From the NCBI GenBank assembly GCA_029856435.1, contig JAHQXB010000042.1, positions 1 through 49,361 of the forward strand: 49,361 nt of DNA. Reading direction: 5' to 3'. The notes beneath the pieces are model-generated. The model worked only from the letters and a program-made list of their open reading frames with translations, was not told the origin of the DNA and did not search any database. This document shows positions 20,721 to 21,772 of the stretch, piece after piece (position 1 is the first letter of the stretch; every line of letters starts with the position of its first letter). The translations under genes were made by a program, and so were the position numbers. This DNA is from Candidatus Jordarchaeia archaeon (GTDB taxonomy: Archaea; Asgardarchaeota; Jordiarchaeia; Jordiarchaeales; Jordiarchaeaceae).

Positions 20721-21772
20721 TTGGATAATAATGAGTTTAAAAAGTCCATCAATTGTCTGGGTCTGGAAGGCACAGCCCATACACTCGGAGCCGGCATAGT
20801 CAATGATAAGGGTGTAGTTCTCTCAAATGTTTGGGATGAATATATTCCTCTTAGGGGAGGAATACATCCGAGGGAGGCTGCTCAACACCATGCAGCGGTA
20901 ATTAAAAAAGTGATACGCAGCGCCTTGGAAAAAGCGAACATAAGCATGAGGGAAATAAATCTGGTGGCTTTTTCTCAAGGTCCGGGGCTAAGTAAAGGTT
21001 TATCCTTTGTCTCCCTTGAGGGCCTTGTTTAAGAACTACAGCGACTGCTGCGAGAGCCTTATCACTCCTATTAAATGTGCCTCTGGTAGGTGTAAACCAC
21101 TGTATAGCTCATGTGGAAATAGGTAAGTTGGCAACAAATGTGAAGGATCCTGTTACCCTTTATGTTTCTGGAGGGAATACTATGGTTACCGCTTTTGATG
21201 AGGGGCGCTACAGAGTCTTCGGGGAAACTCTAGACATCGCCATTGGTAATATGTTAGATGTATTTGCGAGAGCAATTGGGCTTCAACATCCCGGAGGAGC
21301 GAAAATAGAGAGCCTCTCCAAGGAGGGGAAAAATTATATTCCTCTACCTTACACGGTGAAGGGAATGGATCTATCCTTCTCGGGCCTTTTAACAGCAGCA
21401 TTAAATAAGATAAAAGAGTGTAGAGTTGAGGATCTTTGCTACAGTTTACAGGAAGTTGCCTTTTCTATGCTGGCGGAAGTAACGGAGCGGGCAGTTGCAC
21501 ATACTGGTAAGAAGGAGGTTCTATTAACGGGAGGTGTTGGCAGAAATAAACGGTTGCAGGAAATGTTGAAGGCGATTTCTAGCGAGCACGAAGCAAACTT
21601 CTATGTTGTGCCGCAAGATTTGGCAGGAGACAATGGTGCAATGATTGCTTGGACAGGAATACTTGCATACAAGTGTGGGCAAACTATAACTGTAGAAGAA
21701 AGCCTTGTGCGTCCCAAATGGCGTTTAGACGAAGTGGACATTCCATGGATTCAGGGGAGGGTGCTAGAATAG
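20721..21772 (+). CDS. kae1: tRNA N6-adenosine threonylcarbamoyltransferase Kae1 (KEOPS), interrupted by a 29-nt intron
   Basis: Kae1 is the catalytic KEOPS subunit making t6A at position 37 of ANN-decoding tRNAs. Read straight, the frame stops at 21030-21032. Joining 20721-20989 to 21019-21772 gives one 340-residue protein with every expected motif: GLEGTAHTLGAGIV, GIHPREAAQHH, FSQGPGLGPCLRTTATAARAL across the junction, the metal ligands H117 and H121 (NHCIAH), YVSGGNT, and GGVGRNKRL. Neither half alone could be active. GGGGA lies six bases before TTG 20721; TTG 20715 is the other choice. Bud32 starts on the base after the stop, and Pcc1 is in the same operon. Gene callers will show two fragments (ending 21032 and starting near 21077). 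Confidence 0.92.
20990..21018 (+). other. Archaeal bulge-helix-bulge intron in kae1
   Basis: The 29-base insert splits Leu90 (CT|A). The RNA can form a complete hBHBh' motif. The exon helix is 8 bp (20976-20983 with 21020-21027, one G-U). The 5' bulge is CTA (20988-20990) and the core helix is 4 bp (20984-20987 GGGG with 21013-21016 CCCT). The 3' bulge is TGA (21017-21019). The intron hairpin is 20991-20998 with 21004-21012, loop TTTAT. Cutting after the second base of each bulge, as the tRNA splicing endonuclease does, removes exactly 20990-21018 and restores the frame. Confidence 0.92.

Follow-up and report, generated by a model that had tools for sequence, protein, structure and literature searches.

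The kae1 gene in the window, by which we mean the whole stretch of 49,361 nucleotides analyzed from a Candidatus Jordarchaeia archaeon, raises the question of how a complete protein could be produced from a broken reading frame. The gene occupies positions 20715 to 21772 of the forward strand and, judged from its open reading frames, is split by 29 bases at 20990 to 21018 that break the frame; the frames as called are 20715 to 21032 (105 amino acids) and 21077 to 21772 (231 amino acids). We propose, on the strength of sequence comparison, that positions 20990 to 21018 are very probably a bulge-helix-bulge (BHB) intron in the kae1 pre-mRNA, which would be cut by EndA and presumably sealed by RtcB.

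The interrupted kae1 gene and its predicted fold

Removal of positions 20990 to 21018 yields SQGPGLGPCLRTTATAARAL and a single open frame of 342 codons; the spliced coding length is 1029 nt from a TTG at 20715 and, by arithmetic, 1023 nt from a TTG at 20721, the two possible starts. Exon 1 (20715 to 20989) would end two bases into the Leu codon of QGPGL, the predicted 29-nt, phase 2 intron (20990 to 21018) begins with AAGTAAAGG and ends with CCCTTG, and exon 2 would extend from 21019 to 21772, stop codon included, all on the forward strand. Only two cut pairs in the tested range yield SQGPGLGPCLRTT, namely, 20990-21018 and 20991-21019; the resulting mRNAs are identical, and the first pair was chosen over the second because of the bulge rule described below. 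The spliced protein scores 524.9 bits against the arch_KAE1 model (TIGR03722; cut-off, 375), compared to 104.7 and 372.2 bits for the separate frames, and it aligns over the full length (14 to 336) with chain 2ivn_A, which we take to be P. abyssi Kae1, at 417 bits.

The host genome is a metagenome bin of 3.54 Mb in 181 contigs, 97.8% complete and with 5.74% contamination. A PF00814 profile search of this genome found no second kae1, and the intact extra copy that the first-pass annotation had foreseen as an objection to an intron did not turn up in the bin. The only other PF00814 match is part of an 806-amino-acid frame that we regard as HypF-like, because the same frame holds the sole PF01300 match. 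That match to Sua5/TsaC lies at 5273 to 5803 of contig C176, and the PF01300 search of the bin found no stand-alone Sua5/TsaC, the partner enzyme in t6A synthesis. As for genomic context, two further KEOPS genes lie downstream on the forward strand: bud32, encoding the kinase/ATPase, at 21773 to 22396 (TIGR03724, 248.5 bits) and pcc1, encoding another subunit, at 24959 to 25219 (NF011470, 38.3 bits; cut-off, 27).

Around the insert, an exon helix of 8 bp, one of them G-U, can form between CAAGGTCC at 20976 to 20983, in the codons of QGP, and GGGCCTTG at 21020 to 21027, in the codons of GPC. A core helix of 4 bp, again with one G-U, pairs GGGG on the exon side (20984 to 20987) with CCCT on the intron side (21013 to 21016), and it is bordered by the 5' bulge CTA (20988 to 20990; predicted cut between CT and A) and the 3' bulge TGA (21017 to 21019; predicted cut between TG and A). 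Positions 20991 to 21012 make up the intron hairpin h', with a UUUAU loop at 20999 to 21003. The RNAfold minimum free energy (MFE) structure of 20971 to 21034 is exactly this hBHBh' arrangement, at -22.6 kcal/mol. The first-pass annotation had described a kae1 frameshifted by 29 bases within a full hBHBh' structure, and its coordinates proved exact, with an identical MFE fold. It had also deduced that cutting after the second base of each bulge removes 20990 to 21018 and leaves the universal Kae1 sequence in 1023 coding bases, which holds when the count starts from the TTG at 20721.

The host insert thus has the 3-nt bulges on opposite strands, the 4-bp core, and the outer exon helix of a BHB motif, and it has them in its MFE structure. 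The catalytic core and length of hundreds of bases that mark group I and group II introns are missing, the inserts considered here being 13 to 32 nt long, as are the GT..AG borders of spliceosomal introns: the host insert starts with AA and ends with TG.

By itself, the fold is modest evidence only, because its z score is -2.30 and 5 of 200 shuffled sequences fold equally well. In addition, any gene that encodes the peptide QGP..GPC will contain CARGGNCC/GGNCCNTG, and coding thereby accounts for 6 of the 8 outer pairs. The first-pass claim that structure and frame independently choose the same cuts was therefore too strong; since the exon helix is mostly dictated by QGP..GPC, the two are not fully independent, and in kae1 the structural evidence free of this constraint comes from the intron stem, the core helix, and two wobble pairs. 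These constraints, together with the presence of 7 of the 8 pairs in 29 of 75 uninterrupted archaeal genes, bring up an alternative in which the helix is a by-product of coding and some activity other than EndA and RtcB takes out the insert. We consider this very unlikely in light of the comparisons with relatives.

Conservation of the site and of the reading frame

All 11 Jordarchaeia and Odinarchaeia loci that were found are interrupted at one nucleotide, two bases into one and the same Leu codon, that of QGPGL/G. PF00814 searches covered 99 relatives, 96 of which matched, and 227 genomes of the phylum, 217 of which matched, with matches counted per genome. A split of the match at profile positions 62 to 67 was seen in all four genomes of the genus of the host (G000, the host itself, to G003), in the order's other family (three of four genomes, namely, G004, G005, and G007, by two matches), and in both genomes of one further family (G010 and G019). 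For the fourth genome of the second family, G006, the insert was read at a contig end, with exon 1 running off the contig. Uninterrupted near relatives, which the first-pass annotation had named as evidence that would count against an intron, were looked for, and there are none among the 8 genomes of the genus and order. The sole other genome with two PF00814 matches is G013, whose break lies elsewhere (L045, around position 1370); it resembles a small indel in an A-rich run and was rejected as an intron for that reason.

A second survey was limited to the best 80 of 571 relatives: the site is intact in 75 and interrupted in 5. Of these five, four are genomes already counted, and the fifth, L052, is the eleventh case. 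The L052 record is titled Sigynarchaeota, yet its Kae1 is 88% identical to that of the host, a Jordarchaeum relative; the label or the binning may be off.

The core helix is paired at all four positions in 10 of the 11 interrupted loci, and the outer helix is paired at all eight in 9 of the 11; each exception has a single broken pair, which lies in the core for G002 and in the outer helix for G005 and G006. We assessed covariation on 10 distinct motifs, omitting G003, which is identical to the host. Overall, 97.5% of the cells are paired, while slid versions of the motif reach at most 70.9%, and the covariation score of 0.326 exceeds the shuffled mean of 0.182, with 0 of 500 shuffles as high. 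Two of the five covariation measures show no clear separation from the shuffles: the number of pairs with changes on both sides, three in all (168 of 500 shuffles as high), and the number of further pair types (30 of 500). Outer pair 6 occurs as GC, UA, UG, CG, and GU. The search of related kae1 genes for the same insert with compensatory changes, as proposed in the first-pass annotation, was thus successful, with 11 loci and a covariation score above all of the shuffles.

Comparison with uninterrupted genes weighs against a mere by-product of coding. Among uninterrupted loci, the full 8-bp outer helix is present in 4 of the 75 archaeal ones and in 0 of the 26 Asgard ones (33 minus 7 dropped at the open reading frame and motif filter), compared to 9 of the 11 interrupted loci. 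The two free wobble pairs are both retained in 9 of the 11 interrupted loci versus 11 of 75 and 6 of 26 in the respective control sets, which share a few genomes; the Fisher p values overstate the difference, because the rows are related, the control genomes overlap, and many of them carry a residue other than Gln. Furthermore, the core, which lies partly inside the insert, holds its register in 10 of the 11 loci, and cbf5, discussed below, has the same geometry with compensatory changes in its core. These observations favor the proposal that the kae1 insert is a BHB intron processed by EndA and RtcB.

The inserts are 29, 28, 29, and 29 nt long in G000 to G003, 14, 13, 14, and 14 nt long in G004 to G007, 28 nt long in G010, 32 nt long in G019, and 30 nt long in L052. 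Their lengths leave a remainder of 1 on division by 3 in three and of 2 in seven of the ten genomic loci, and of 0 in L052. Nevertheless, excision gives an in-frame Kae1 with GPGLGPCLR in 10 of 10 genomes, and L052 fits too. Without excision, the frame closes within 2 to 14 codons in each of the ten genomes, and in L052 the 30-nt insert itself contains an in-frame stop.

A translational explanation, either programmed ribosomal frameshifting or a bypassing of the insert (translational hopping), would be in keeping with a short insert and a hairpin at the site, but the constant change of frame that characterizes a programmed frameshift site is not found across the 11 loci. Lengths of 0, 1, and 2 modulo 3 with a frame that is always restored speak against frameshifting, as they do against sequencing error, whereas the BHB cut rule fits every time; moreover, an in-frame stop lies inside the insert in 4 of 10 loci and in L052. 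A translational mechanism is highly improbable on these grounds. Equally little credence is due to a split gene, in which peptides of 105 and 231 amino acids would assemble into a working Kae1. Two open frames do exist, each matching its own part of the model, but the first ATG, GTG, or TTG of the second frame is the GTG at 21077, which is downstream of GPCLRTTATAARALSLLLN, a stretch conserved among the relatives compared.

Both kae1 exons are, as judged from dN/dS, under purifying selection (0.03 to 0.10 in both exons for four species pairs, with some dS values saturated). An error in sequencing or in assembly, or a gene decaying into a pseudogene, to which the state of the metagenome bin (181 contigs, 5.74% contamination), the indel-like break in the kae1 of G013, and a run of undetermined residues in that of G003 might seem to point, has a negligible probability in view of these dN/dS values, the interruption of one nucleotide in 11 separate sequences by inserts of 13 to 32 nt, and the lack of a second kae1 in the search of the bin.

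Returning to the predicted intron, its fold is not uniformly canonical. The canonical BHB lies 2.7, 4.7, 0.2, and 3.7 kcal/mol above the minimum for the 13- to 14-nt inserts of G004 to G007, 2.0 kcal/mol above it in G001, 0.6 kcal/mol in G002, and 1.4 kcal/mol in each of G010 and G019. The 5' site of the 13- to 14-nt forms falls in or beside the hairpin loop, and according to the folding model these inserts would be relaxed substrates; a relaxed BHB that is not the minimum is also present in G010 and G019, the two Odinarchaeia-family genomes. A Kae1 tree, from which five long rows were excluded, does not place the interrupted sequences in one clade (AU p 0.0195 against one clade) and implies two changes. 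With Jordarchaeia and Odinarchaeia not forming one clade, the interruption was either gained twice, at the same nucleotide, or gained once and later lost. The QGP..GPC motif may well offer a ready-made site for BHB introns, which would fit a tree with Jordarchaeia and Odinarchaeia separate.

Splicing enzymes and other interrupted genes

The host genome has two EndA genes, L004 (contig C104) and L005 (contig C64), both of them uninterrupted. The best match of L004 is chain 3p1z_B, in an alignment that spans the KP loop, with a Lys at chain position 44, and in which Tyr, His, and Lys are kept; we take this chain to be the A. pernix EndA alpha subunit and likewise assume the catalytic role of Tyr/His/Lys and the loop position. 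L005 has a Thr at the His position of 1a79. By their residues, L004 looks catalytic and L005 appears to be structural. Two EndA matches were obtained in 14 and one in 5 of the 19 Asgard genomes (host included). RtcB is encoded by one gene, on contig C93 (PF01139; E value, 5e-174). Five of seven tRNA matches in the host are 92 to 107 nt long, and ARAGORN, with introns allowed, returned a tRNA-Leu with a 32-nt intron, at a lax setting that also yields spurious hits. Introns are described in 92 to 95% of the tRNA genes of three wetland Asgard genomes (PMC11291895).

A heterotetramer with the Crenarchaea-specific loop is the form of EndA expected to cut outside the context of a tRNA. By analogy with crenarchaeal cbf5, EndA would act as an (alpha-beta)2 heterotetramer and cut each 3-nt bulge behind its second base, after which RtcB would join the kae1 exons. 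Unspliced kae1 mRNA would give only a truncated protein of ~105 residues, and splicing capacity would consequently limit Kae1 output. Both enzymes would be needed for cbf5 as well and, in the genus of the host, for the mRNA of RtcB itself. The intron reading of kae1 is strongly supported because 11 loci are interrupted at one nucleotide by inserts of varying length, the helices covary, the exons are under apparent purifying selection, the gene is present in a single copy, and both EndA and RtcB are encoded.

The cbf5 gene of the host (L151, contig C73, ~22487 to 22798, minus strand) is interrupted by a canonical BHB insert of 31 nt; the site lies within GTLDP, in the codon for Asp, and we take this Asp to be the catalytic residue of Cbf5. 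After excision, the host Cbf5 scores 488 bits against TIGR00425 (cut-off, 238). Among 69 genomes searched, in which the loci read were frames that looked short or broken, cbf5 is interrupted at 13 loci: those of all 8 Jordarchaeia genomes read, those of four other genomes (G011, G021, G028, and G041), and that of the G066 bin (L241), which has 12% contamination and is counted with that doubt. No pair is broken in the core helices (CACT/AGTG, CACT/GGTG, CTCT/AGAG, and CTTT/GAAG) of the 13 loci; for the seven distinct motifs, pairing is 100% in the core and 92.9% in the outer helix, and two core pairs are changed on both sides. Of 500 shuffles, 1 reached the covariation score, 218 the number of changed pairs, and 463 the number of further types. 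One more candidate, L240 of G052, was an automatic pattern match with an intron length of 0; it is probably a contaminant (compare the Bathyarchaeota record L077) and was excluded. The two interruptions do not always occur together: G010 and G019 have an interrupted kae1 and an uninterrupted cbf5 (read in G010; taken from the match row in G019). The crenarchaeal cbf5 intron is described as lying in the codon of the catalytic residue (PMC2738675). The Asgard interruption likewise falls in the codon that we take to be that of the catalytic residue, a comparison made at the level of the codon.

The rtcB gene of the host (L139, contig C93, 302 to 1636, minus strand) is interrupted at LPD/AHQGYG. 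The insert is 30 nt long, contains a TGA or TAA in frame, and is present in 4 of 4 genomes of the genus (the gene is partial in G002). The host rtcB has a CCCG/CGGG core, with cuts after the second base of ACA and AAG, and an enlarged 3' side; the predicted BHB is relaxed, and one core pair is broken in G001. The insert is absent from the rtcB genes read in G004, G006, G007, G010, G012, and G013, no stop was found within the remaining RtcB matches, and G005 is without an RtcB match. Within the genus, then, the gene for the very ligase expected to seal these introns is itself interrupted by an insert.

We also scanned 1,038,996 bases, or 29% of the genome (the window and 60 stretches, two of them chosen for cbf5 and rtcB), for BHB geometries that rescue a frame. 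The scan is tuned to its target, the rule on the intron stem having been lowered from three to two stacked pairs so that kae1 is caught, and it is blind to relaxed cases such as rtcB. A first sample (the window and 20 stretches) gave 49 rescues in register, compared to 55 and 45 at shifted registers; after filtering, there were 18 versus 16 and 12. From the full set of 1605 geometries, 128 rescues were in register, compared to 115, 124, 116, and 122 at offsets of -2, -1, +1, and +2; with a coding filter on both sides, the numbers were 16 versus 6, 6, 7, and 6, and at a stricter threshold, at which kae1 and cbf5 are lost, 4 versus 1, 1, 1, and 1. MFE folds inspected by eye form a BHB for kae1 and cbf5 alone among the 16 filtered rescues; the other 14 look like neighboring genes or extensions of open reading frames and were set aside. 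A BHB-like 14-nt spacer at L194 (6747 to 6761) separates a ModE/Mop-like gene, recognized by eye, from a Mop-like frame; we judged these to be two genes and rejected the spacer as an intron. A genome-wide wealth of BHB introns is not supported by the scan. Beyond kae1 and cbf5, the 29% covered yielded no gene in which a rescued frame and a BHB fold coincide, and such introns are likely rare. Enrichment in RNA maturation genes is not shown by these data, because the families searched are nearly all of that kind.

Relation to known mRNA introns and biological implications

The data support assignment of the kae1 insert to a known kind of BHB pre-mRNA intron, the cbf5 type, in a gene and a phylum that would be new for it. 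The first-pass annotation had held such introns in protein genes to be known mainly from cbf5 and a few others; the cbf5 precedent stands, but kae1 is not alone here, since cbf5 and rtcB are interrupted as well. RNA-seq studies have reportedly pointed to a few more BHB-like introns in crenarchaeal mRNAs, none of which is known to be in kae1. No report of an intron in kae1 or rtcB, or of a BHB intron in an Asgard protein-coding gene, was present among the matches listed in a search of titles and abstract starts in the open literature.

As described for crenarchaeal cbf5 (PMC2738675), the kae1 insert is short, lies in an RNA modification gene, interrupts a codon of a conserved motif, would be cut between the second and third bases of the bulge, and would be expected to need a hetero-oligomeric EndA. 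The kae1 case differs in belonging to a t6A synthesis gene of Asgard archaea, known here from sequence, and in insert size, with lengths down to 13 nt versus the 16 to 44 bp given for crenarchaeal cbf5 (PMC2738675). That source cites cDNA from several species (partly as unpublished results) and cleavage work for the crenarchaeal intron, and it proposed negative regulation for cbf5 (PMC2738675). It also mentions putative 12-bp introns in protein-coding genes of an archaeal virus, close in size to the 13- to 14-nt kae1 inserts; their splicing is presented there as undemonstrated, and at 12 bp removal may be unneeded (PMC2738675).

The HVO_1309 mRNA of Haloferax volcanii contains a BHB intron processed by EndA, as we propose for kae1, but that intron is in the 5' untranslated region, whereas the kae1 insert is in the coding sequence (PMC7714728). 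This 2020 report names that of crenarchaeal cbf5 as the only other such BHB mRNA intron reported and describes the function of the BHB mRNA intron as not yet known (PMC7714728). Archaeal tRNA introns, whether BHB or relaxed, share the motif and the enzymes proposed for kae1 but reside in tRNA genes (PMC11291895). The HAC1/XBP1 mRNA also has a nonspliceosomal intron with joining of the tRNA ligase type; there, cleavage is by IRE1 in the unfolded protein response, whereas EndA is the presumed nuclease for kae1 (PMC4090602, PMC13149111).

A tentative and, in our estimate, rather doubtful extension of these results is an mRNA splicing circuit in Asgard archaea. BHB introns in the mRNAs of kae1 (t6A37), cbf5 (pseudouridine), and rtcB (exon ligation) would make their output a readout of free tRNA-splicing capacity, and the ligase of the genus, by splicing its own mRNA, would close an autocatalytic loop. 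The kae1 site would be a hot spot, because the near-palindrome encoding QGP..GPC provides a ready-made exon helix, and the cbf5 site would be common to Asgard archaea and Crenarchaeota. More narrowly, a link between splicing capacity and t6A synthesis may exist, and a regulatory role with output tied to that capacity is conceivable.

Asgard archaea are the group nearest to the ancestors of eukaryotes. If our reading is correct, they excise short introns from essential protein genes by means of protein enzymes, and a second and a third gene of this kind would mean that spliced mRNAs are no crenarchaeal oddity. As a plain open reading frame caller cuts kae1 in two, Asgard inventories of KEOPS, Cbf5, and RtcB may need reannotation. 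The wider pattern in kae1, cbf5, and rtcB merits follow-up: with three genes, one pathway, and lineages with and without each intron, the purpose of the cbf5 intron would become testable.
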